Virus record (IMG/VR): IMGVR_UViG_3300009419_000032
Location: 1 to 40,396 of that record
Reading direction: 5' to 3' (one strand)
Source: a virus
Length of the DNA stretch: 40,396 nt
Numbering within the stretch: the first letter of the stretch is position 1; each line of letters opens with the position of its first letter. The notes beneath the pieces were generated by a model. It did not search any database, was not told where the DNA came from, and saw only the letters and a list, made by a program, of their open reading frames with translations. Position numbers and translations under genes: made by a program. Of this stretch, positions 3,428 to 35,957 are shown piece after piece.

Positions 3428-5074
3428 ATGAACGTACAATCTCTATTGGAATCTGCCAATCCATACGCTTCTATGATGACTGAGGCACAGCGCCTTGTCA
3501 AGAAGTGGGGCAAGACAGGTTTACTCGCAGGCAAAGACCTGGAGAAATCTGCATATGGTCAAGAAAGGATGGCAATCATCCTTGAAAACCAAGCTAAGCA
3601 GCTTGTAATTGAAGGATCTCAAACAGGTACCGGCGGTACTTTCGTAGCAGGTCAAGGTGAGCAGTGGGCCGGTGTTGCACTCCCATTAGTTCGTAAGATC
3701 TTCGCTGAGATTTCTTCTAAAGAATTCGTTAGCGTACAGCCTATGACTCTCCCTGCAGGACTTGTGTTCTTCTTAGAATTCAAGTATGGTAACAACCAAC
3801 CTGAAGGCATGAACGGCGGTGCTCGTTTCGCTACCGGTGCTAGCATGTACGGTACTACCAATGTAAAAGATACCGATCCTTTCGGTGGTCTGTATGGCGC
3901 TGGTCGTTTCGGATATAGCATCAATGAGTATAGCGGTGCTGCTGCAATGGCAATCACTACTGCATCTTATGCTGACGTTAACTTCAAAGCTAACTTTAGT
4001 GCATCTGCAGCTGCTGACAAACTGCGTAAGATTAGCCTTGTAAACGCTTCTGTAATTCTTCCTAGCCTTGACACTAACGGTGTACGTGCTTTCTTGATTA
4101 CTGGTAGCGGTTTCAACGAGTCTAACGTATTCGCTGAGTTCACTACTTACAATGCTACTTCTGACATCCTTACTTTCGTTGCTAGCGGCTCTGGCGGTTT
4201 CGCAACTAGCTCTAGCCTGTCTGCTTCTGTTTACTATCAGAAACAACCTAAAGACAACGATCGTGGTGACTTCGAAGATACCAACACTCGTCCATTAACT
4301 GGATCTGCTGCTATCCCTGAAATCAACGTAGAGCTTCGCTCTGAGCCCGTTGTTGCTAAAACTCGTAAACTGAAAGCTAAATGGACTCCGGAATTCAGCC
4401 AAGACCTGAATGCTTACCAGTCTATGGATGCTGAAGCTGAGTTGACTTCAACCCTTTCTGAGTACATCTCTTTGGAGATTGATCTTGAGATTATCGACAT
4501 GCTGTTGTCTAATGCAAACACTACCGATGTATGGTCTGCACAGTCTAACACATTCTACAATAAGAGCACCAACACTTGGAGCGTATTATCTGCTGGTTCT
4601 ACTGGCGGTTACTACAACACACAAGGTCAGTGGTTCGCTACATTGGGTACTAAAATCCAAAGCGTAGCTCGTACCATTCATAAGAAGACCTTACGTGGCC
4701 AAGCTAACGTAATCATGGTAGGCCCTAGCGTTGCAACCATTATCGAGTCTATCCCTGGATATGCTGCTGATACCGATGGTAGCCGCGAAGAGTTTGCAAT
4801 GGGCTCTCATAAAGCTGGTCAGTTAAACAGCCGTTACAAAGTGTATGTTAACCCATACATGGATGAGAACACTGTACTGTTGGCCTTCAAAGGTAGCCAG
4901 TTCCTTGAGACCGGTGCTGCTTTCTGCCCTTACATTCCCTTGATCATGACCCCTCTGTTGTATGATCCCGAAACTTTCACCCCACGTAAAGGCTTACTTA
5001 GCCGTTACGCAAAGAAGATGCTCAGAAGTGAGTTCTTCGGTAAAGTATTCGTAGCTGATTTGGACAAAATCTAG
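3428..5074 (+). CDS. Major capsid protein, T4 gp23-like
   Basis: This 548-aa protein forms the hexamer lattice of the head. Family blocks are clear: 'FVSVQPMTLPAGLVFFLEF' (about 100-118, the T4 'VQPM..P.GL.F' block), 'VVAKTRKLKAKWTPEFSQDL' (about 308-327), 'AEAELTSTLSEYISLEIDLE', 'NVIMVGPSVATIIE', and the C-terminal 'YIPLIMTPLLYDPETFTPRKG' region (about 500-520). Length is close to T4 gp23 (521 aa). A cleavage site is likely after Glu62 (VIE before G), near the T4 processing site at residue 65, so the mature form would lack about 62 residues. Codon use is unlike most neighbours (CGT, GGT, CTT, GCT rather than AGG and ATA), as expected for very high expression. A strong terminator follows. Confidence 0.97.
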   Translation: MNVQSLLESANPYASMMTEAQRLVKKWGKTGLLAGKDLEKSAYGQERMAIILENQAKQLVIEGSQTGTGGTFVAGQGEQWAGVALPLVRKIFAEISSKEFVSVQPMTLPAGLVFFLEFKYGNNQPEGMNGGARFATGASMYGTTNVKDTDPFGGLYGAGRFGYSINEYSGAAAMAITTASYADVNFKANFSASAAADKLRKISLVNASVILPSLDTNGVRAFLITGSGFNESNVFAEFTTYNATSDILTFVASGSGGFATSSSLSASVYYQKQPKDNDRGDFEDTNTRPLTGSAAIPEINVELRSEPVVAKTRKLKAKWTPEFSQDLNAYQSMDAEAELTSTLSEYISLEIDLEIIDMLLSNANTTDVWSAQSNTFYNKSTNTWSVLSAGSTGGYYNTQGQWFATLGTKIQSVARTIHKKTLRGQANVIMVGPSVATIIESIPGYAADTDGSREEFAMGSHKAGQLNSRYKVYVNPYMDENTVLLAFKGSQFLETGAAFCPYIPLIMTPLLYDPETFTPRKGLLSRYAKKMLRSEFFGKVFVADLDKI

Positions 5075-5188: not shown

Positions 5189-6748
5189 ATGGCTGAAGAT
5201 AAAAAGTGCTTGGAGTGTGGTACAGAATTGTCAAAGAGGCAGAAGATGTTTTGCTCCAACAAGTGCAAACTATCCAATAAGGACAACATAGCTATCAGAA
5301 CCAAGGCAAAGGATAAGCAGGATGATGGCCTCATAGCCGTTTGTAAATCTACCGGAAAGGTATACAAAGACCACAAGAATTACTCAGGAGTCTTAACCCG
5401 TCATGTACGATCTATGGGCCATGAAATGACCTCCGTAGCTGACTACTTCGATGTAATACTCAACCCAAAATCTCCCAAACCCAAATACCACTGCAAATAC
5501 TGTCAGTGGAGCACTGTAGATGTAAAGAACCTATCAGGATGCATAACCTCGCACCTAAAGAAAGAGCATAGCATAGAGACCTCAGACCACGTCATAAAGT
5601 ATCCTGACGAGAGCATCCTATTCTCACACAACAACAAAGACTCCAACAGACAAGCAGTATTCAATACCAGGGAGGCTTCATACACAACCTGTGAGATATG
5701 TAAAAAGAGATATGAAAAGCTGACTGAGACTCACATGAACACCCATGGTATAACCCTAATCCAGTATAGGGATAAATACCCCAACAGCAAAACCCTGTCT
5801 AAAGACCAAGTAGACATCCATAGAAAGCAGTATGAGCTTAACAGAGTCGCTATAAACAAGATAAAGAAGGTAAGCAACAAGGAGAATGAGCTGAGAGACT
5901 TCTTAAAGTCCTTAGGAGTGTCCTATAAGCAATCAGATAGAACCGTTATAAACCCAATGGAGCTAGACTTCTATATTGCAGACCATAAACTAGCTATAGA
6001 GTATAACGGGCTAGCCTGGCATTCTGAGAAATTCGGTAAAAAGGATAAATGGTATCACCTGTCTAAGCTAGAGAAGTGTGAGGAAGCCGGAGTTAGGCTC
6101 ATTACTATATTCGAAGATGACTGGATAAACAAAAAAGACATCGTAAAGAACAAGATAGTCAATGCTCTAAGGCTAAACAAAGACCGGATATACGCTAGGA
6201 AGTGCGTCGTGAGCGAGATAAATCTATCTGACAAAAATAATTTCCTGGATATCCATCACATACAAGCGAAGGACACCTCTCCAATATGCCTAGGACTGCA
6301 CTACAACGGCGTATTAGTATCAGTGATGACATTCGGACGTCCCAAGATAACAATGGGCGACAAGGGCAAGCTAAATGGGTCGTATGAGCTGTCTAGATTC
6401 GCATCATCTACTAATGTGGTGGGAGCGGCCTCAAAACTGCTATCGTATTTCATAAAGACCTACAGCCCGAAATCAATATTCAGCTTCGCAGATAGGAGGT
6501 ACACCACGACTCTAGGGGAAACCGTGTATGATAAGATTGGGTTCAAAAAGGACAAGATAAACCCTCCTACATACTGGGTATTGAAAAACCACAGACAGCG
6601 CTATCACAGATTCACATTCAACAAAAAAAGAATCGTTAAATATCTAGGAGGAGATCCAAAGAAAACTGAGATTCAGAATCTATACGACCTAGGATACGAT
6701 AGGATATGGGACTGTGGAGCCATAAAATATGTTATGACTCTTACATAA
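5189..6748 (+). CDS. Free-standing homing endonuclease, zinc fingers + Vsr-like nuclease
   Basis: This 519-aa protein has several Cys/His modules followed by a nuclease core. Residues 7-26 hold CxxC...CxxxC. Residues 48-90 and 168-200 resemble MucR/Ros-type fingers (CEIC...THMNTHG...YRDKYP). Residues 102-127 hold CKYC...H-x4-H. The core at about 230-325 carries 'MELDFYI', 'LAIEYNGLAWHSE', 'LEKCEEAGVRLITIFEDDW', the pattern of Vsr-fold (EDxHD-like) phage homing endonucleases, with Asp260, Glu271 and His278 as likely active-site residues. The C-terminal 340-519 region (VSVMTFGRP, ELSRFAS, FSFADRRYT) is a domain often attached to such nucleases. It sits right after the capsid gene, a classic homing position. 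AGGAG lies 7 bases before the ATG. Family identification is from recall of motifs; specificity is unknown. Confidence 0.85.
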   Translation: MAEDKKCLECGTELSKRQKMFCSNKCKLSNKDNIAIRTKAKDKQDDGLIAVCKSTGKVYKDHKNYSGVLTRHVRSMGHEMTSVADYFDVILNPKSPKPKYHCKYCQWSTVDVKNLSGCITSHLKKEHSIETSDHVIKYPDESILFSHNNKDSNRQAVFNTREASYTTCEICKKRYEKLTETHMNTHGITLIQYRDKYPNSKTLSKDQVDIHRKQYELNRVAINKIKKVSNKENELRDFLKSLGVSYKQSDRTVINPMELDFYIADHKLAIEYNGLAWHSEKFGKKDKWYHLSKLEKCEEAGVRLITIFEDDWINKKDIVKNKIVNALRLNKDRIYARKCVVSEINLSDKNNFLDIHHIQAKDTSPICLGLHYNGVLVSVMTFGRPKITMGDKGKLNGSYELSRFASSTNVVGAASKLLSYFIKTYSPKSIFSFADRRYTTTLGETVYDKIGFKKDKINPPTYWVLKNHRQRYHRFTFNKKRIVKYLGGDPKKTEIQNLYDLGYDRIWDCGAIKYVMTLT

Positions 6749-8133: not shown

Positions 8134-9330
8134 ATGGCAGTTAAAATTACCCAAAAAGATTTTATATGTAGAGCAGTATCCGTGCATGGAGATCTTTACG
8201 ACTACTCAAAATCAGTATACAAAAACTATAGAACCAAAGTATGTATACAATGCAAAGTCCATGGGGAGTTTTACCAGACCCCTCATGACCATATTTCAGG
8301 TAAGTATGGGTGTAGATTTTGTGGTAAGGAGAGCGCATCTTCGAAGAGAATGAAAAGCAAGGAGGAATTTAAAAAGGAAATAGAGAATTTATATCCTGGA
8401 ATTTTTAATATTGATAGCCTTGTATACTCTGGGATGAATAGTCCTGTGAGGATAACACATATTAATTTCGGAGAGTTTGAAATATGTCCCAAAAAACTAT
8501 TGTATCAAAACCCAAAGAGAGGCGACATGTTTCACACAGTAGACTTTCTTAAAAAAGAGAAGCAGGTAAAGATAGAAAACTTCCTAAAAAGAGCTGAAGA
8601 AGTGCACGGAGATAAGTTTACATACGACATGGTCAATTATAATGGTCATGAATCTAGTATATCAATATATTGCAAGGAACATAAAAAACACTTTACTCAA
8701 AAAACAAAGCATCATCTAAAAAGTAATGGAGGATGTCCTGATTGTAAGTCAGATAGCATATCCAGAGCCGCATCACAGGACTTACCATCATTTATTAAAA
8801 AAGCCGTAGAAATTTGGGGAGATTCCTTAGATTTTTCCAAAACAGTATATAAAAACAATAAAACTAAAAGTGTATTTGTTTGCAGAAAGCATGGAGAATT
8901 TACAAAAACTCCCAACGATATTATAGGAGGGCATGGATGTAAACTTTGTGGGACTTCTAAGTTGGGTAAGTACAATGTGAAAAATTCAAAGAACAGAGAA
9001 TCTTTGTATAAGGAGCAAACGGCTATTTTATATCTCATGAAAATTCACAACAGTGAAGAGACTTTCTATAAAGTGGGAATATCTATCAGCCTGTTTGATC
9101 GGATATCTAACATAAAAAGTTTATCAAAGTGTGAAGTAGAAGTAATACATTCTGTGAATATGACATTATTCGAAGCAGTTAACAGAGAGCATACTATTTT
9201 AGACCAGTTAAGCAAGTATTCATACCTACCTAAAAAAAGGTTTTCTGGGTATAGAGAGTGTTTATCTGTTGACTGCTTAGAAGAAGTCAATAAAGCCTTC
9301 ACACAGATATACGACAATTACAAGGACTGA
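8134..9330 (+). CDS. Putative homing endonuclease: Zn-ribbon repeats + GIY-YIG-like domain
   Basis: This 398-aa protein has four tandem modules of about 50 residues with the pattern 'F..A...HGD.YDYS...Y.N...KV.I.C..HGEF.Q.P..H..G.GC..C'. They lie at about 10-63, 79-130, 150-204 and 220-272. The second has lost its Cys pair. The repeats resemble DUF723-type DNA-binding modules of phage and bacterial nucleases. The C-terminal region 297-385 looks like a divergent GIY-YIG (Mug113/T5orf172-like) nuclease: 'ILYLMKI' then 'FYKVGIS', Arg323 in 'DRI', and a late Glu in 'FSGYREC'. It lies between the PhoH-like and neck genes. Its AT-rich codon choice (AAA, TTT, ATT) differs from the structural genes, which fits a mobile origin. 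Confidence 0.8.
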   Translation: MAVKITQKDFICRAVSVHGDLYDYSKSVYKNYRTKVCIQCKVHGEFYQTPHDHISGKYGCRFCGKESASSKRMKSKEEFKKEIENLYPGIFNIDSLVYSGMNSPVRITHINFGEFEICPKKLLYQNPKRGDMFHTVDFLKKEKQVKIENFLKRAEEVHGDKFTYDMVNYNGHESSISIYCKEHKKHFTQKTKHHLKSNGGCPDCKSDSISRAASQDLPSFIKKAVEIWGDSLDFSKTVYKNNKTKSVFVCRKHGEFTKTPNDIIGGHGCKLCGTSKLGKYNVKNSKNRESLYKEQTAILYLMKIHNSEETFYKVGISISLFDRISNIKSLSKCEVEVIHSVNMTLFEAVNREHTILDQLSKYSYLPKKRFSGYRECLSVDCLEEVNKAFTQIYDNYKD

Positions 9331-10922: not shown

Positions 10923-11411
10923 ATGGCCCTTTTTGGAAGCGTTAGAGCTAGATCTCTATTCAGACATCACAGTAGACAGTTGCTAGCTAGGATAGTAGCT
11001 GAGGAAGTGCTATACTATAAGCTGTCACTCAAGGAAACCTCGTACAATCTGTACGGTGAGTCCAAGAGTAAGGTGTATTTTCAGCCTGTACTGATGACAT
11101 GCCTGTATCAAGTTACCGATCAGGCGTCTGAAGACGCAGAATACGGAAAGAGCCGGTCTCAGCAGGTAGACTTCAAGTTCCTTAGGGACGATTTAGTAAT
11201 CGCAGGACTGCTTCCGGAGGCTGGAGACATCATATCTTGGCAAGAATCCTACTACGAGGTGGATCTAATCATTGAGAATCAGAGAGTGATGGGTAAGAAC
11301 CCTGAATATGCCTTAGAAACTGGATTAGCTAAGTACGGAGAGTCCTGGTCCATGATATGCAAGAGCCATTTGACAAACATTAATAAACTGAATATCGCAA
11401 AATCGAAATAA
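10923..11411 (+). CDS. Neck protein, T4 gp14-like
   Basis: This 162-aa protein matches the gp14-like neck family: 'ETSYNLYGESKSKVYFQPV' (about 38-56), 'VDFKFLRDDL' (about 80-89), and 'EAGDIISWQESYYEVDLIIE' (about 99-118) followed by 'NQRVMGKNPEY'. T4 gp14 is larger (256 aa), but short forms like this are usual in marine T4-like phages as I recall them. It sits between a gp13-like and a gp15-like gene, as in T4. The ATG follows the previous stop by 2 bases with no Shine-Dalgarno. Confidence 0.75.
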   Translation: MALFGSVRARSLFRHHSRQLLARIVAEEVLYYKLSLKETSYNLYGESKSKVYFQPVLMTCLYQVTDQASEDAEYGKSRSQQVDFKFLRDDLVIAGLLPEAGDIISWQESYYEVDLIIENQRVMGKNPEYALETGLAKYGESWSMICKSHLTNINKLNIAKSK

Positions 11412-21717: not shown

Positions 21718-22602
21718 ATGGGTATAACAATAGCCAATAAGGGGTTTGGAGGTAAAGTTACCTTTACTAACAGGAACGCAGGAGGTATATTCAGAATGAA
21801 ATACAGCCTGGCCTTGTTATTGGATACCTATTCCGGTGCTGCAGCGGCCTATTCACTAAGAAAACTGAGGACTGCTTATAGTGGTGCGGCTATTAGAGTG
21901 AGAAGATCGTCGGATAATGTGGAGACTGATATAGGATTTACTAGTAGTGGAGCATTGGATGAAACAGCTCTAACTACTTTTGTAGGTGCTAATAGTGGAT
22001 TTGTTACTACTTGGTATGATCAAAGTGGAAATGCAAGAAATGCAACGCAGACAACGGCGGCAAATCAGCCAAGGATTGTTAGTGCGGGGGTGGTGGATAA
22101 GTTGAATTCAAGACCTGCTGTTAAATTTTTAGCTGGCAACTTTATGATTTCATCTACTAATACTGGAACAGGGAATGGCATTAAATTTAATTTTGCTTTT
22201 ATACCTTATTCTTTTTCTCAAATAACAACAGTAAATTATTTACTATATGAAGCAGGGACAGGATATGGGATACTTGCTGGAGGTAATTATGATGCGACAA
22301 TCACCGGATTTCAATCAGTCTACAATAATGGATCTGCATCAACTGATGAAATTATTAATACACCTAAATTAGGAACGGCAATGCTTTATAATACTACTGC
22401 CGTTTGGGTAAATTCAAGTTTAAAGAATACTAATGCTGGAAGTAGTTTAAACGCTTCGTTCATGTCAATAGGTGGCGGCATATTTGGCTCAACGCAATCA
22501 TCATATTCAACTATGCCGGAAATAATTTTTTATGCATCCGACCAAACAGCAACCCGAACCAAAATAGAACAAAACATAAACAGCTACTATGCAATATATT
22601 AA
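21718..22602 (+). CDS. GH54/AbfB-like lectin-fold receptor-binding protein, copy A
   Basis: This 294-aa protein starts with 'MGITIANKGFGGKVTF' and then has the block 'AAAAYSLRKLRTAYSGAAIR', 'DIGFTSSGALDETALTTFVG', 'GFVTTWYDQSGNARNATQ' (about 38-112). This pattern resembles the N-terminal part of GH54 alpha-L-arabinofuranosidase B catalytic domains (SGALYQVRRSSD...YDQSG), which have a concanavalin-like beta-sandwich. I cannot place the catalytic Glu/Asp of GH54, so glycan binding rather than hydrolysis is the safer inference. The C-terminus 'QNINSYYAIY' is shared with copies B and C. The 5' half is well conserved among copies, while the 3' half is divergent and more AT-rich. It overlaps the next gene by 14 bases. 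Confidence 0.75.
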   Translation: MGITIANKGFGGKVTFTNRNAGGIFRMKYSLALLLDTYSGAAAAYSLRKLRTAYSGAAIRVRRSSDNVETDIGFTSSGALDETALTTFVGANSGFVTTWYDQSGNARNATQTTAANQPRIVSAGVVDKLNSRPAVKFLAGNFMISSTNTGTGNGIKFNFAFIPYSFSQITTVNYLLYEAGTGYGILAGGNYDATITGFQSVYNNGSASTDEIINTPKLGTAMLYNTTAVWVNSSLKNTNAGSSLNASFMSIGGGIFGSTQSSYSTMPEIIFYASDQTATRTKIEQNINSYYAIY

Positions 22603-23002: not shown

Positions 23003-23305
23003 ATGGGTATAACTATCACAAATAACGGATTAGGGGGTCTGATAACATTCAGAAGTACCGGGCTAGGCGGAGCTATGAAAAGCTGGTACCGGCCACTATA
23101 CCTGTTAGATAACTACCCAGGTGCTGCTGCAGCCTACTCTCTTAGAAGGCTTAACAGCTCATACAGCGGTGCGGCTATTAGAGTGAGGCGAGATTCTGAT
23201 AACGCAGAATCGGACATAGGATTTACTAGTGCCGGAGCATTGGATGAAACTGCATTAATGACTGCTGTAAAGTACGAAACTATTGTACGTATTCTGAAGA
23301 TCTAG
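23003..23305 (+). CDS. GH54-like receptor-binding protein, copy B, 5' part (frameshifted)
   Basis: This 100-aa frame holds the conserved start of the family: 'MGITITNNGLGGLITF', 'AAAAYSLRRLNSSYSGAAIR', 'DIGFTSAGALDETAL'. It then runs into 'MTAVKYETIVRILKI' and stops. The homology resumes in the -1 frame, which is open from 23248, so the full protein would span 23003-24456 (about 484 aa). A one-base deletion between about 23248 and 23280 explains the break. It could be a sequencing or assembly error, a real mutation, or a recoding site; I see no classic slippery heptamer. Confidence 0.65.
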   Translation: MGITITNNGLGGLITFRSTGLGGAMKSWYRPLYLLDNYPGAAAAYSLRRLNSSYSGAAIRVRRDSDNAESDIGFTSAGALDETALMTAVKYETIVRILKI

Positions 23306-23445
23306 GGTCATCATTTGGCCTGTTCTTTTCGTCCATAACTGCTAATTCTACAACAGCTCCAGATGGAGCAACTACAGCGAACAAAGTAGCAGAGACAGCT
23401 AATACAGGGCAGCATAGTATTAACAGGACTAACAGCACGTTTAAT

Positions 23446-24456
23446 TTGACAACACAGTACACGTTTAGCGTATATGTAAAAGCAGCTGAACGAAACTATG
23501 TTATATTAAAATGGAGCTATAGCACTTCATCAGCGTATGCATGTTTTGATTTAACAACAGGATTAATAACCCAGAGCGGTATATTCGGCACTGCTCAATT
23601 GATAAATACCGGTGCAACTAGTGTAGGCAATGGATGGTGGAGATTGAGTATAACTGGATATGCGATTAGAGACTGTAGTATTGTAATATCCAATTCTGGA
23701 ACATTTTCAACAACGGATGGTTCATATTCGTATGCTGGCACTCTTGGGAGTGGGATATACGCATGGGGGGCTCAACTTAATCTTACTAGTATTAAGACTT
23801 ACCAAAAAACCACTAATGTGGCATATAATGGGAATGGCTATGTGACAACATGGTATGACCAGTCAGGAAACACCGGTAGGAATGCAACACAGACAACGGC
23901 TACAAATCAGCCAAGAATTGTTAGTGCTGGGGTGGTGGATAGAATAAATAATAAGCCTTCTGCATACTATAATGGCTCTAGTACTTTTTTAAATATTGTA
24001 AATATTGATTTATCTATTTCATTTGTTTTTGGTGTAGGCATTGCCACCGCAAACGTAAGTGGATTTAATGCCCACACTATTTTTTCTAAAAATTCAATAT
24101 CAAATTTTGATCGAGAGTCGACACTTTATATTGATAGAACAGGATCCCAGATTATTTTTCAAAAAGTTATTAGCGCAAGTAGCGCAGCCGTAAAGGCAAT
24201 GGATATTTCCAAAATAAATTTATTTACTGGCGTATATTATACTAATATCTTAGCTTATGTTAATGGTGTTTCGGGTACGTCAGTCGCATTAAGGGCTGGA
24301 ACTTTAACAAATCCAAAATGCACGATTGGGAGTAGTGGAATAGGCGCGTTATTTTTATTGGGTTATATCCCTGAAATTGTAGTGTACAATTCCGACCAAA
24401 CCACCAACCGAACCCAAATAGAACAAAACATAAACCAATACTACACAATATACTAA
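23446..24456 (+). CDS. GH54-like receptor-binding protein, copy B, 3' part with inserted CBM-like domain
   Basis: The frame is open from 23248; the TTG at 23446 is only the first possible start codon and really encodes a Leu inside a domain. From 23281 it encodes 'YCTYSEDLGSSFG', 'SSITANSTTAPDGATTANKV', 'YTFSVYVKAAERNYVILKW', 'VGNGWWRLSITG', 'SGIYAWGAQLNL', a carbohydrate-binding-like beta-sandwich common in phage fibres. It is inserted in the GH54-like fold just before 'GYVTTWYDQSGNTGRNATQ'. The usual C-terminus 'QNINQYYTIY' follows. Copies A and C lack this insert. With the 5' part restored the gene would be about 484 aa. Its 3' part is AT-rich like the 3' halves of copies A and C. Confidence 0.65.
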   Translation: MTTQYTFSVYVKAAERNYVILKWSYSTSSAYACFDLTTGLITQSGIFGTAQLINTGATSVGNGWWRLSITGYAIRDCSIVISNSGTFSTTDGSYSYAGTLGSGIYAWGAQLNLTSIKTYQKTTNVAYNGNGYVTTWYDQSGNTGRNATQTTATNQPRIVSAGVVDRINNKPSAYYNGSSTFLNIVNIDLSISFVFGVGIATANVSGFNAHTIFSKNSISNFDRESTLYIDRTGSQIIFQKVISASSAAVKAMDISKINLFTGVYYTNILAYVNGVSGTSVALRAGTLTNPKCTIGSSGIGALFLLGYIPEIVVYNSDQTTNRTQIEQNINQYYTIY

Positions 24457-25189: not shown

Positions 25190-25609
25190 ATGCCAGCAAA
25201 TACATTACCCATATTCACATTAGTACCCGACATTGGTTTCGGGAGAATGGTAGCAGCCAATACCGGTTCTGACGGATCCGGAACGCTCTATACCGTTTTT
25301 ACAGCCGGAGTCAATGGCTCAAGAGTGGACTCCATCACATTTACTAACTCACAAGCAACATATGCGGCATCTAGTGCCATGGTAGCTAGAGTGTTTGTTA
25401 CAGACATTACTGGATCAAATCCAAGACTATTGTCTGAGATTGCACTACCAGCTGCTACAAGAACTGCCGCTGTTGTAGGACAAACACAGGTAATTACATA
25501 CCTAAACGGATTGATACTCCCTAGCGGATCTCTAGTAAGGACATGCCAGAGTGTGTATGCAGGAGTTCAGGATCAAGTAGATGTAGTAGTAAGAGGAGGG
25601 GACTTCTAA
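25190..25609 (+). CDS. Small beta-rich structural protein
   Basis: This 139-aa protein begins 'MPANTLPIFTLVPDIGFGRM' and has alternating strands with 'GSGTLYTVFTAGVNGSRVDS' and 'VARVFVTDITG', ending 'VDVVVRGGDF'. It resembles small beta-sandwich virion proteins seen in many tailed phages, possibly a fibre or decoration component, though I cannot name a family. It lies between a stalk gene and a GH54-like gene and overlaps the latter by one base (TAATG), so it is probably part of the same fibre complex. Confidence 0.72.
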   Translation: MPANTLPIFTLVPDIGFGRMVAANTGSDGSGTLYTVFTAGVNGSRVDSITFTNSQATYAASSAMVARVFVTDITGSNPRLLSEIALPAATRTAAVVGQTQVITYLNGLILPSGSLVRTCQSVYAGVQDQVDVVVRGGDF

Positions 25610-26493
25610 TGACATCAGCAGAATCAGCATATGGATTTCCATTGCCTGTATCTACTAATATGGGTTATGGATTTCCTAGTATAAAGAATCTATTGCTAGA
25701 TACCTATAGTGGTGCTGCTGCAGCGTATTCACTAAGAAAACTGAGAACTGCCTACACTGGAGCTGCTATTAGAGTGAGGAGATCATCGGATAGCGTAGAA
25801 AGTGATATAGGGTTCACTAGTACTGGGGCATTGGATGAAACATCTCTTACTACGTTTATAGGGGCTAACAGCGGGTTTGTGACAACGTGGTATGATCAAT
25901 CAGGTAACACCGGTAGAAATGCCGCACAGACAACAGCAGCAAGTCAACCGAGAATTGTGAATGCAGGGGTAATTGAGCGGCGTAATGGTAAGCCAGCGTT
26001 AAGGTTTCCTGCAAATATGCCTGCATATAAATTTGATGCACCAAATACAAATTGGATATATTTTGGCATTGTTTCTTATGATAATGCGGCTGGACTTCGA
26101 CAGTGTTATGGTTATAATGGGGGAGGTTATCAGACAAGTGGTATCTATATGATTGGCCCAAACACAACATTTAATAGGGCTGGGGGCACTTCGGGAATAG
26201 GTGCTACTGGTAGCTATGTAAGCAATTCATTATTACTATTTGGCACTCAATACTTATCTAATAACACTGGCATAGGATTTCTAAACGCAAATACATCAGC
26301 TCCTGCAAGTGCACTTATCAACGGATCACCATACACAAGCGGAGGTGGGTTTGGTTTTGGCGTATATGGGGCATCAGCCGGAACATTTTCACTAGACGGG
26401 CATATTGCAGAACACATAGCATATCAGGTAGATAACACCGCAAATATTAATAATATAAAAATAAACATAAACAGTTATTATGCAATATATTAA
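25609..26493 (+). CDS. GH54/AbfB-like lectin-fold receptor-binding protein, copy C
   Basis: I choose the ATG at 25609, which overlaps the previous stop by one base; the open frame extends upstream but only inside the preceding gene. The protein is 294 aa, the same length as copy A. The conserved block is 'AAAAYSLRKLRTAYTGAAIR', 'DIGFTSTGALDETSLTTFIG', 'GFVTTWYDQSGNTGRNAAQ'. The N-terminus 'MTSAESAYGFPLPVSTNMGY' replaces the 'MGITI' start of copies A and B. The 3' half is unrelated in detail to those of A and B until the shared C-terminus 'ININSYYAIY'. As with copy A, enzymatic activity cannot be judged. It overlaps a truncated 26-codon frame. Confidence 0.75.
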   Translation: MTSAESAYGFPLPVSTNMGYGFPSIKNLLLDTYSGAAAAYSLRKLRTAYTGAAIRVRRSSDSVESDIGFTSTGALDETSLTTFIGANSGFVTTWYDQSGNTGRNAAQTTAASQPRIVNAGVIERRNGKPALRFPANMPAYKFDAPNTNWIYFGIVSYDNAAGLRQCYGYNGGGYQTSGIYMIGPNTTFNRAGGTSGIGATGSYVSNSLLLFGTQYLSNNTGIGFLNANTSAPASALINGSPYTSGGGFGFGVYGASAGTFSLDGHIAEHIAYQVDNTANINNIKININSYYAIY

Positions 26494-29904: not shown

Positions 29905-32556
29905 ATGACAGAACAAATATCAAGCGCCGGAGTGTATGCGTATGAAAACGACCAATCGTTTTACACTCAGGGCAATTCTACTACCGGATTAGCGGTAGTC
30001 GGGCCAACCGAAAAAGGTGCGGCATTCGTTCCTACAGACATTACTAGTTATTCAGAGTTCACAGCCGTTTTCGGAGCTGACACTAAGGCTAGCTACACTG
30101 CACAGACTGCCTATAACTATCTGCAGGCTGGTAGCACTGTAAAGGTAACTCGTGTGTTAGGAAATGGCGGATGGTCTTATAGCTCGACTAATAAGTTAGC
30201 TGCTATTATAAAGCCCTCTACTGTAACTAGTACTGGGTCTTTTGCGAACACTACAGTTGACACAGGTTCAATCGTTCCATGGCAGTCAGGCCCAACCTAT
30301 TATTTCAAATTAGTTGGCAGCGCCGACGTATACTTCTCAGGATATTCAGGAGCTCCTGATGGAGAAGGTCTCGGCGGTGTTCAATATTTCAACGCTACCG
30401 GATCATTAGCTAACACAATAGGAAATCTCGTACTTGCTATAAACCGTACAACTGCCAATACAAAAGTAACCGCAAGTTACACAGGAGGTGCTAATATCAC
30501 ACTTACTGCTACTCAAGTAGGAGCTCAAGGAAACGATTATAATTTCTCTCGTGTTCAGCCTGATGGTGAGGACATTGGAATAGACTTCCCATTTGCAAAC
30601 GGCACAGGTGTAACATTTGCTACCGCCCCACAAATCCTTACGGTATTATACCCTACTCAAAACGATACAGTAAACACAGGATTGAACGGAGCAACTGTAA
30701 CAGGAACTCACAACCAATTCAAATTAACCCTTAGCGGATCAACCTTCACTCAACCAGCTGTAAGCTCGTCTTTAAACCCTACATCAGATATCTACCTGAC
30801 TAAGGTATTAGGTACAGATGCTACTTACAAGACTGGATCAGTATTCCCTTACTTACTGTTCGGCAATGCTGTAACAAATAGTGGAGTTATCACTGGAAGC
30901 GCTAACATCACCGGCTCATTAATATTCACCACTACCGCTTGCACATTCACTAGCTCTAACGCTAGCGGATATGATCATGCTAAGACCCCATGGGTACTTT
31001 CAGATAGTGGAGAGCGCTTGTTCACATTCCATCATGTATCTGACGGATTCAAGACTAACAAAGACGTAAAAGTTGCTATTGCCAATATCAACAAAGGCGA
31101 TACTGATGTAGACTACTCAACATTCGATGTAATCGTAAGAGCTTACAACGATACTGACAAATACCCCTCTATCATAGAGCAGTATATCGGAGTGACCTTA
31201 GATCCTAACTCTGCCAACTTTATCGGCAGCATGATTGGTGATAAGTACAGCGCATACGATGAACTGCAAGAGAAGGTAATAGAGAACGGAGACTATATGA
31301 ACATCTCAAAATACATTCGTGTAGAGATGACAAACGGTGTTAGCAACGGTATGACTCACCCACAGCTTATTCCTAACGGATATGAGGCAATATATGAGCC
31401 TATCGCAGGATTCAACGGGTACAATCTACCAGCTGCTGCTGTCGTGTTAAGCAACTCAAGCTCATTCGTATACTCAGGATTCGATTACAGCAATGCAGAC
31501 AACATGAACTACCTTAACCCTACCCCAGTAGAAGCCGGAGTAGGTGCTAACGTAAACTTCACAAAACCTTCAAACGAGTCTAAATTCATACTGCCATTCC
31601 AAGGTGGAACAGATGGTATGAACTACACCACAATCAAGAAGATTGGAGCTGCCATTGAAGCAGATGGTTCAAACGTATTCGGATTTGATTTATCAGATAG
31701 CTCAGCCCCCGGCTACGGAGCATATGCGAAGGCCTTAAACATCCTAAGCAACAACGAAGAGTATGTATTTGATCTCTTAGCTCTGCCAGGAGTACTCGAA
31801 CAGTACCACGGAGCAGTAACAGCATACGCACAGAGCATTGTAGAAGAGCGTACAGACGCAGTATACATCAGGGACCTTACAGGACTTAACGCTAACGTAG
31901 CTACAGCAGTATCTACAGTAGCAGGACTTGACTCTAGCTATTGCGCAACCTACTACCCATGGGTAAAGGTAAACGACCTGGGAAGCTCAAAAGACATCTT
32001 AGTACCACCTTCAGTAGTAGTACCAGAGGTATATGCGTACAGCGATAGAGTATCTGCTGAGTGGTTCGCACCTGCAGGACTTTCAAGAGGTATCATAGGA
32101 GCCATCGACACTAGAACAAGGCTTAGCAAGAAGGACAGAGATGCTCTGTACAAAGCAAGAATCAACCCAATCGCTAAATTCCCTAACACCGGTGTAGTAG
32201 TATGGGGACAGAAGACCTTACAAGTAAAAGATACAGCGCTTAACCGAATCAATGTTCGCAGACTGTTGATCAACCTGAGAGGCTTCATCTCTGACATCTC
32301 TAAGAACTTCGTATTCGATAACAATACTACTCAGACTAGAAATAACCTGATTAGCGAAATCGTACCGTACATGGAGAGTGTTCAATCTCGCCAGGGACTG
32401 TATGCCTTCAGAGTACAGATTGACGAAACATTGAACACCAATGACGCAATCGACCGTAATCAGCTAGTTGGTAAAATATACGTATCTCCTGCTAAATCAA
32501 TAGAGTTCATCCTCTTAGAGTTCAACGTGACGGCTACCGGGGGAATAACTATGTAA
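29905..32556 (+). CDS. Contractile tail sheath protein, T4 gp18-like
   Basis: This 883-aa protein forms the contractile sheath. The N-terminus 'ISSAGVYAYENDQS', then 'GLAVVGPTEKGAAFVPTDIT' and 'LQAGSTVKVTRVLG' match the sheath start. The C-terminal sheath domain is clear at about 725-883: 'ALYKARINPIAKFPNTGVVV', 'WGQKTLQ', 'INVRRLLINLRGFISDISK', 'FVFDNNTTQTRNNL', 'GLYAFRVQIDETLNTNDAID', 'VGKIYVSPAKSIEFILLEF'. It is longer than T4 gp18 (659 aa), with the extra length in the surface-exposed middle (about 110-330). Codon use (GCT, GGA, CGT) is partly shifted toward that of the capsid gene, as expected for an abundant protein. It is followed by the tube gene as in T4. Confidence 0.95.
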   Translation: MTEQISSAGVYAYENDQSFYTQGNSTTGLAVVGPTEKGAAFVPTDITSYSEFTAVFGADTKASYTAQTAYNYLQAGSTVKVTRVLGNGGWSYSSTNKLAAIIKPSTVTSTGSFANTTVDTGSIVPWQSGPTYYFKLVGSADVYFSGYSGAPDGEGLGGVQYFNATGSLANTIGNLVLAINRTTANTKVTASYTGGANITLTATQVGAQGNDYNFSRVQPDGEDIGIDFPFANGTGVTFATAPQILTVLYPTQNDTVNTGLNGATVTGTHNQFKLTLSGSTFTQPAVSSSLNPTSDIYLTKVLGTDATYKTGSVFPYLLFGNAVTNSGVITGSANITGSLIFTTTACTFTSSNASGYDHAKTPWVLSDSGERLFTFHHVSDGFKTNKDVKVAIANINKGDTDVDYSTFDVIVRAYNDTDKYPSIIEQYIGVTLDPNSANFIGSMIGDKYSAYDELQEKVIENGDYMNISKYIRVEMTNGVSNGMTHPQLIPNGYEAIYEPIAGFNGYNLPAAAVVLSNSSSFVYSGFDYSNADNMNYLNPTPVEAGVGANVNFTKPSNESKFILPFQGGTDGMNYTTIKKIGAAIEADGSNVFGFDLSDSSAPGYGAYAKALNILSNNEEYVFDLLALPGVLEQYHGAVTAYAQSIVEERTDAVYIRDLTGLNANVATAVSTVAGLDSSYCATYYPWVKVNDLGSSKDILVPPSVVVPEVYAYSDRVSAEWFAPAGLSRGIIGAIDTRTRLSKKDRDALYKARINPIAKFPNTGVVVWGQKTLQVKDTALNRINVRRLLINLRGFISDISKNFVFDNNTTQTRNNLISEIVPYMESVQSRQGLYAFRVQIDETLNTNDAIDRNQLVGKIYVSPAKSIEFILLEFNVTATGGITM

Positions 32557-32606: not shown

Positions 32607-32831
32607 ATGCCAATACTGAATACGAATGACATGCTCGGTACAATGTTTGAACCGATACTACAGCATAGATTCTTAATGTCGATCAATGGTATCCCATCCT
32701 TCCTAATCAAGAAGGTGGATGGTATCGGATTCGACGATGGAGAAGTAACCATAGACCACATCAACAGCTACGTTAAATTCCGTGGTAAGCGTAAGTGGAA
32801 CGATCTCACCCTAGCCTCTATAACCCTGTAA
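32607..32831 (+). CDS. Tail tube protein, T4 gp19-like, 5' part (frameshifted)
   Basis: This 74-aa frame encodes the first half of the tube monomer: 'FEPILQHRFLMSINGIPSFL', 'KKVDGIGFDDGEV', 'YVKFRGKRKWNDLTL'. It ends at a TAA at 32829. The rest of the protein continues in the -1 frame. One missing base near 32814-32818 (for example a lost C in GCC-CTC) joins the two halves into a 162-aa protein, the same size as T4 gp19 (163 aa). Tube protein is essential, so a sequence error is the simplest explanation; a real lesion or recoding is possible. No slippery heptamer is seen. Confidence 0.85.
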   Translation: MPILNTNDMLGTMFEPILQHRFLMSINGIPSFLIKKVDGIGFDDGEVTIDHINSYVKFRGKRKWNDLTLASITL

Positions 32832-33094
32832 GCCCTAGTGGGGCACAGGCAGTAATGGAGTGGGCTAGGCTTGGATACGAAACTGTGACAGGCCGAGCTG
32901 GCTATTTAGACTTCTATGCAAAAGATATCACCTTTAACGCACTAGACCCGGTAGGTAACTTAGTCAATGAATGGGTGATTAAGAAGGCCTTCATAAAGAG
33001 CGTATCCAACTTTGGAAGCTGGGATTGGGCCGCTAGTGAATATACTACAATTGATATGGTTTTGGGAAATTCGGGGATGATTTTGAACTATTGA
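32795..33094 (+). CDS. Tail tube protein, T4 gp19-like, 3' part (frameshifted)
   Basis: The true continuation begins near 32816 with 'LYNPVSPSGAQAVMEWARLG', then 'ETVTGRAGYLDFYAKDITFN', 'EWVIKKAFIKSVSNFGSWDW' and 'MVLGNSGMILNY', all typical of gp19-like tubes. The GTG at 32795 and the first 15 residues in this frame are an artefact of reading the other frame's sequence. Together with the 5' part it makes a full-length tube. A terminator follows at 33123. Confidence 0.85.
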   Translation: MERSHPSLYNPVSPSGAQAVMEWARLGYETVTGRAGYLDFYAKDITFNALDPVGNLVNEWVIKKAFIKSVSNFGSWDWAASEYTTIDMVLGNSGMILNY

Positions 33095-33122
33095 TTTAAC
33101 AATTTGTTAACATACAGAAAAA

Positions 33123-33149
33123 CCCCAACCTTTGTGTTGGGGGTTTTTT
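33123..33149 (+). terminator. Rho-independent terminator after tail tube gene
   Basis: CCCCAAC pairs with GTTGGGG around a 6-base loop (CTTTGT), followed, after one extra G, by six T (33144-33149). It lies 28 bases after the tube stop and just before the HNH gene's ATG. Confidence 0.88.
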
Positions 33150-33157
33150 ATATTATT

Positions 33158-33853
33158 ATGGAAAAGACGTGCTCAAAATGCAGTATTGAAAAGGATGTAA
33201 TCCTGTTTAGAAAGGACTGCAGACGCGATAATGCGTATAGATCCATATGCAAAGAGTGTGAGCGTAAAAAAGAAGCTGAATATAGAAAGGCTAACCTAGA
33301 TAAATTTGCAAAAAAATCCCGTGAGTATAGGAAAAACAATCCTGATAAAGCCAGAGATTATGATAAGAGGGCCTATGTAAAAAGTGCAGACAGAATAAAA
33401 GAATATGAAGCTAGTAAAGAGAGGAAAGAATCTAAAAAGAGGGCTATAGACAGACTTAAAGAGAAGGATCCAGAATACTTTGCCAGATATAATAGAAATA
33501 AAAGAATAACAGATAAGAACTACACTATAGCTCAAAATTTAAGGAATAGGGTTAATAAGGCTTTAAAAGGGGTTGTTAAAAGCGCCAAAACCAAACAACT
33601 TTTAGGATGCACTATCTCAGAACTTAAAATCCATCTAGAATCCAAGTTCCTACCTACCATGTCATGGGAAAATTATGGCCCTTTATGGCATATAGATCAT
33701 ATCATCCCATGCGCACACTTTGATCTTATCGATCCTACTCAACAGGAAAAGTGTTTTCATTATAGCAATTTACAGCCATTATTCGCTAGGACTACTATAA
33801 TAGACGGGACTACCTATATAGGAAACCTAGAAAAAAGGGATTCTATTATTTGA
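33158..33853 (+). CDS. HNH homing endonuclease
   Basis: I take the ATG at 33158 (231 aa); the frame opens earlier at a TTG, but that region contains the tube terminator. Residues 4-35 hold a CxxC...CxxC finger ('CSKCSIEKD...ICKEC') typical of phage HNH nucleases. A long basic helical linker follows (about 36-135). The HNH core is 'WENYGPLWHIDHIIPCAHFD' (about 182-201) with the His-Asp-His triad and a downstream 'HYSNLQPLFA' containing the conserved Asn. It sits directly after the tube gene, a typical site for a free-standing homing gene. Codons are more AT-rich than those of the tail genes. Confidence 0.9.
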   Translation: MEKTCSKCSIEKDVILFRKDCRRDNAYRSICKECERKKEAEYRKANLDKFAKKSREYRKNNPDKARDYDKRAYVKSADRIKEYEASKERKESKKRAIDRLKEKDPEYFARYNRNKRITDKNYTIAQNLRNRVNKALKGVVKSAKTKQLLGCTISELKIHLESKFLPTMSWENYGPLWHIDHIIPCAHFDLIDPTQQEKCFHYSNLQPLFARTTIIDGTTYIGNLEKRDSII

Positions 33854-35111: not shown

Positions 35112-35145
35112 AGTCACATCTTTAGACCGGATGTGGCTTTTTTTT
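35112..35145 (+). terminator. Rho-independent terminator in the 34982-35192 gap
   Basis: AGTCACATC pairs with GATGTGGCT (one G-T pair) around a 9-base loop, followed by T at 35138-35145. It would end transcription of the 363-aa gene. The rest of the 211-base gap holds only the next promoter motif; no RNA gene was recognised. Confidence 0.88.
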
Positions 35146-35166
35146 ATCTCAAACCCCACTCCGTAT

Positions 35167-35175
35167 ATATTTATA
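35167..35175 (+). promoter_or_regulatory. Candidate promoter motif before baseplate gene
   Basis: ATATTTATA in the context TATATATTTATATA ends 17 bases before the ATG at 35193, just after a strong terminator. This clean isolation makes it one of the most convincing copies. Confidence 0.65.
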
Positions 35176-35192
35176 TACACAAATCAAAGTTT

Positions 35193-35957
35193 ATGTCAGA
35201 CAACCAAGTATTTAAAACCCCAACGCAGCCATTAGATCTGCCATCGAAAGGATTCTTATATCCAGAATCGAATCCCCTTAGCTCAGGACAAGTAGAGCTA
35301 AACATGCCATCTGCTAAAGATGAAGACATCCTGACCAACAGAAACTACATCGAACAGAATATCGTGCTAGATAAGTTTCTGCAGTCAATCATTGCTAGTA
35401 AAATCGACTACGATGACCTGTTAGTAGGAGACAAGAATGCCATTCTGGTAGCTGCCAGGATATTAGCCTACGGCTCACAGTACACATTCAACTATACCGA
35501 CCCGGTAACAAGGGTAGCTGAGCCCGTTACTATCGATCTAGGAGACATCAAGGACAAGGAAATCGACTGGTCTAAGTTTACCAAGGGGGTAAATGAGCTA
35601 GACATCAAATTGCCTACTACCGGAGCTACCATCACCGTAAAGCTGATGACTCACAGAGATGAGATGGCTATAGAAGCTGAGATTAAGGCCATGAAGAAGT
35701 TCAACAAGAACGCTTCAATAGAGGTCACTAGCAGGCTGAATCAGACCATTTTAGCCGTTAACGGGGATAGGACAACGGCAACCATCAGAAACTTCGTAAA
35801 AAGCATGCCTATGCGCGATACAAAGGAGATGAAGAAGGTGCTAGCGCTGTCTACTCCAGACCTAGAGATGAAATTTGATTTTACACGAAGCAACGGAGAG
35901 GTAGTGGAGGGCCTGACTATACCGATGACGGTCGATTTCTTTTGGCCTGAGTCCTGA
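35193..35957 (+). CDS. Baseplate hub protein, T4 gp26-like
   Basis: I choose the ATG at 35193 (254 aa); the frame opens at 35133, but that stretch contains the terminator and promoter. The N-terminal signature 'LDLPSKGFLYPESNPLSSGQ', 'MPSAKDEDILTNRNYIEQNI', 'LDKFLQSIIASKIDYDDLL', 'GDKNAILVAARILAYGSQY' is that of the T4 baseplate (gp26-like) family, which helps build the baseplate hub. It is slightly longer than T4 gp26 (208 aa). The end reads 'VDFFWPES' then TGA, and the next ORF is in the +1 frame with its open frame overlapping this end, raising possible recoding (TCC TGA G). Confidence 0.82.
   Translation: MSDNQVFKTPTQPLDLPSKGFLYPESNPLSSGQVELNMPSAKDEDILTNRNYIEQNIVLDKFLQSIIASKIDYDDLLVGDKNAILVAARILAYGSQYTFNYTDPVTRVAEPVTIDLGDIKDKEIDWSKFTKGVNELDIKLPTTGATITVKLMTHRDEMAIEAEIKAMKKFNKNASIEVTSRLNQTILAVNGDRTTATIRNFVKSMPMRDTKEMKKVLALSTPDLEMKFDFTRSNGEVVEGLTIPMTVDFFWPES

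Follow-up and report, generated by a model that had tools for sequence, protein, structure and literature searches.

A one-base frame break in the tail tube gene of an uncultured phage contig: most likely a consensus error or a dead genome

T4-type phages cannot do without their tail tube protein. In the contig investigated here, the gene that should encode it is found in two different reading frames, and the locus thereby raises the question of whether the virus lost a base, whether its ribosomes change frame, or whether a base is absent only from the recorded sequence. The window, that is the whole stretch of DNA analysed, is the entire IMG/VR virus record IMGVR_UViG_3300009419_000032 (40,396 bases). 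The most likely reading of the break is an error of sequencing or assembly, or else a dead genome, and a novel mode of gene expression is unlikely.

The window is probably a piece of a larger genome, the immuto relatives being approximately 160 kb. The source is an uncultured phage akin to Flavobacterium phage immuto, with a contractile tail composed of a T4-type sheath and tube. The nearest deposited genomes were those of the Flavobacterium phages vB_FspM_immuto (Immutovirus), in which the order of sheath, tube and baseplate-hub genes is identical to that of the window. The window carries a block of structural genes that includes the following and others, and it contained no RNA families or tRNAs.

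3428-5074: major head protein
29905-32556, + strand: tail sheath gene, intact, directly upstream of the tube (PHROG 23, E 2.3e-67; Pfam Phage_sheath_1 and Phage_sheath_1C)
32607-33094: the tube locus
35133-35957: T4_baseplate/hub gene

The split tail tube gene

The tube gene, which adjoins the tail sheath gene, has no single continuous frame of approximately 160 codons. The earlier note had described it as a gp19-like tube split by a −1 frameshift, and this description held: the two open reading frames (74 and 99 amino acids) differ in frame, the second being −1 relative to the first, and the two halves align, in register, with adjoining parts of the PHROG 4542 (tail tube) profile.

32607-32831, + strand: the tube's N-terminal half; a premature TAA closes the frame after 74 aa, and homology extends to about residue 69 (PHROG 4542, E 4.7e-07, profile 16-87; 72-80% identity to the intact tubes of the closest relatives)
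32795-33094, + strand: open frame that includes the tube's C-terminal half, with homology starting at 32813 (PHROG 4542, E 8.3e-06, profile 95-173; 80-87% identity to the closest relatives)
32811-32813, + strand: site at which the frame changes by −1, a single base being absent in comparison with intact relatives, with base 32813 shared by the aligned halves (tblastn junctions; codon comparison with relatives L001-L012)

When the intact tubes of relatives were searched by tblastn, each matched the window as two abutting pieces in separate frames that met at 32813, the first covering residues 1 to 69/70 and the second residue 70/71 to the end. On sequence comparison such a two-piece match exceeds chance by far. 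The span of 488 nt falls 1 nt short of the tube gene of immuto_2-6A, which has 489 nt (162 aa). The identity of the gene and the options previously listed for it (error, defective genome or recoding) were sound; the position and the residue implied by the repair were slightly wrong. An added base at 32814-32818, as proposed in the earlier note, lies a few bases too far downstream and would give T-L-A-L-Y-N-P, whereas all twelve closest relatives read T-L-S-L-Y-N-P, which places the frame change at 32811-32813.

The halves of the window gave no match to the Pfam family Phage_T4_gp19 (PF06841). Intact relatives matched nearly the full model weakly, with 18-25 bits, and since these scores lie under the curated cut-off of 28.2, the tube family of the window is a distant branch of the T4 gp19 family. 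A search of solved structures with a profile made from the tube alignment yielded no match at E 0.01. Another open reading frame of 162 aa (10923-11411) was considered as the tube and had no PHROG or Pfam match. An intron or intein was ruled out, as nothing is inserted and the gene is instead one base shorter than expected.

A terminator-like hairpin with a T run (33117-33150) was found immediately after the tube gene; its position is kept in relatives, but its sequence is not, the hairpin of the relatives being a different one. A free-standing HNH (endonuclease VII-like) gene (33159-33853) begins 65 nt after the tube gene ends. Among the matches listed, it was absent in the closest relatives having sequence there, and it therefore looks like a recent homing-endonuclease insertion. 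Three endonuclease genes were noticed in the 40 kb in total, the other two being homing endonuclease-like genes (5189-6748 and 8134-9330) that bracket a PhoH-like gene in the interval from the major head protein gene to the head-tail adaptor gene.

Intact relatives and selection on both halves

Among the 80 best IMG/VR relatives of a larger set, 79 carried the tube as an intact single open reading frame of 161-163 aa, and the remaining one (L053) was cut by the end of its contig; the break was thus absent from all 79 relatives spanning the site. This count includes L034, which was missed by the motif test and found to have a 161-aa open reading frame by another analysis. In each of 11 related records searched, including the complete 160 kb genome of immuto_2-6A, a single tube copy without a stop was found, and no second, compensating copy was present in these records or in the window. 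Exact and degenerate DNA searches revealed no same-species IMG/VR contig carrying the tube site, and the GTDB genome collection yielded one relative only (56%).

Compared with ten close relatives, synonymous differences were near saturation, while nonsynonymous differences were approximately 0.12-0.18 for the N-terminal half and 0.09-0.16 for the C-terminal one. An excess at the third codon position was also present in each half, in its own frame. Both halves are under strong purifying selection, and the sequence around the break has not decayed. The break is therefore either very recent or absent from the virus.

The closest IMG/VR relatives (L001-L012, e.g. IMGVR_UViG_3300042691_019974) have tubes 72-87% identical to that of the window and a similar surrounding gene order, but their reading frame is intact and no HNH gene lies downstream. 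In Flavobacterium phage vB_FspM_immuto_2-6A the tube gene (KNV73_gp040, YP_010114643.1) likewise follows directly after the tail sheath gene, and its product has the length expected here (162 aa) and 56% identity over the C-terminal half of the tube; it differs in being one intact open reading frame with no endonuclease gene after it. The fit to PHROG 4542 likewise joins the window to the T4 gp19 family (PF06841, PHROG 4542), the difference being its broken frame.

Recoding signals at the break and a second frame break

In E. coli, −1 frameshifting needs a Z_ZZN tetramer or an X_XXZ_ZZN heptamer (PMC4066793). The previously reported lack of a slippery heptamer was borne out for the overlap 32795-32828, where no Z_ZZN tetramer was found either, and re-pairing in the P-site would be poor at every position of the overlap. 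A Shine-Dalgarno-like motif was not found in 32780-32830. The frame change is not conserved, no site-spanning relative among the matches listed having one. The following fold was, however, detected next to the break.

32817-32917, + strand: stable fold of RNA or DNA (−37.2 kcal/mol) that adjoins the tube lesion on its 3′ side and was absent from eight intact relatives

Few 101-nt stretches of the contig fold more stably. The test was made post hoc, with the site already seen, and is moderately significant only (z −2.23; as stable in 6 of 200 shuffles and in 4 of 500 synonymous resamplings), and the stretch has a G+C content of 50% against 42%. In the eight intact relatives z ranged from −1.30 to +0.49. 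With no slippery motif next to it, this hairpin would not make a recoding signal. It may be there by chance, or it may have caused the deletion locally, and we infer that such a hairpin may provoke a deletion during amplification or sequencing.

A six-frame reading revealed a second gene in which the frame shifts, also by −1, near 23270-23284.

23003-23305, + strand: first part of the second frame-broken gene, a virion structural protein paralog
23284-24456, + strand: rest of the gene, in the −1 frame (coding-potential frame switch at about 23286; PHROG 10356; relatives L098 and L099)

The first part matched PHROG 10356 at 322-386 (weakly, E 0.0073) and the remainder at 386-624. In L098 and L099, relatives of matching architecture, both parts were uninterrupted within one 1088-aa open reading frame, a comparison that draws on more distant relatives (31-56% identity) than in the case of the tube. 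The two paralogs of this gene in the window (21718-22602 and 25543-26493) are both intact. The second site contains one A_AAG tetramer (23269-23272), which was judged unremarkable for an overlap of 18 codons. A scan of coding frame and alignments gave no further breaks, the loci compared covering much of 1-29,500 thinly or not at all.

The three paralogous structural genes (21718-22602, 23003-24456 and 25543-26493) were noticed to have a common motif, LLDTYSGAAAAYSLRKLRTAYSGAAIRVRRSSDN...VTTWYDQSGN, and may constitute an expanded fiber-like family. The product of 23003-24456 resembles a carbohydrate-binding/LamG-like fiber component.

Origin of the break

The origin of the break may be depicted as follows: The tail tube gene would be an ordinary single-copy gene of approximately 162 codons, and a one-base deletion would have entered the consensus at 32811-32813 at the stage of sequencing, amplification or assembly. 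Most likely the gene is intact in the virus itself, which would make a single full-length tube protein; we infer that the virus has the base and that the consensus lacks it. A loss of one base from the consensus is the probable explanation of the break, and it is favoured because the relatives are intact, no recoding motif is present and the contig contains another break of this type. The tube break is isolated in an otherwise selected gene, and consensus errors best account for the loss of a single base from each of two structural genes that are otherwise clean, both in one metagenomic contig. Antonov et al., who surveyed 1106 genomes, expect frame transitions that are unclustered and supported by homology (BLASTp) to be sequencing errors and not genuine indels (PMC3711429). 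Viral metagenome assemblies have shown fewer than 2 consensus indels per 100 kb for short reads scaffolded with long reads, 22.8 for polished long reads and 474 for unpolished long reads (PMC6487183), and two indels in 40 kb are compatible with this published range. Counter to an error, the tube lesion is outside any long homopolymer, and with just two breaks seen the contig is not grossly error-ridden.

Ranked after a consensus error is a recent genuine deletion, by which the sampled genome or strain variant would be defective and form particles only by complementation from an intact phage in the same cell. This is rather unlikely, although the lesion is clean, with the rest of the tube gene as pristine as a very recent mutation would leave it, two structural genes are broken, and the homing endonuclease-like gene 65 nt downstream may mark a recombinationally active locus. 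A genome with two broken structural genes, one of them for the essential tube, should be rare, yet this one was assembled as the consensus, and its tube gene bears no further decay. Recoding comes as a distant third. Ribosomes would shift by −1 within 32795-32828, stimulated by the downstream hairpin, and so make the full tube; the direction is the right one and the fold is unusually stable and missing in intact relatives. The mandatory Z_ZZN or X_XXZ_ZZN motif is missing, however, the hairpin test has the post hoc character given above, and the shift, used by no relative among the matches listed, would have to be near-quantitative for a main structural protein needed in very many copies. All this makes recoding very improbable, and hardly any weight is left for its variant in which a real deletion is offset by a −1 shift driven by the strong hairpin without a known slippery motif. 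Equally far-fetched would be a tube assembled from two separately translated polypeptides. The second frame does offer a GTG at 32795; this codon lies inside the overlap without a Shine-Dalgarno-like motif, the first six residues after it are unlike any relative, with matches starting at residue 7, and no relative among the matches listed has a split tube.

A tail tube gene that changes frame is known from SPP1, whose tube protein gains a C-terminal domain by a programmed +1 shift (gp17.1/gp17.1*; PMC9022992). The break in the window would instead cut the core fold mid-way, and it has no motif. If recoding were nevertheless true, the production of a major structural protein via near-quantitative, motif-free frameshifting would be remarkable. 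The consensus error favoured here carries a caution: contigs in viral databases can hold single-base consensus losses that mimic split essential genes, and such losses are exposed by comparing relatives and the remainder of the same contig.
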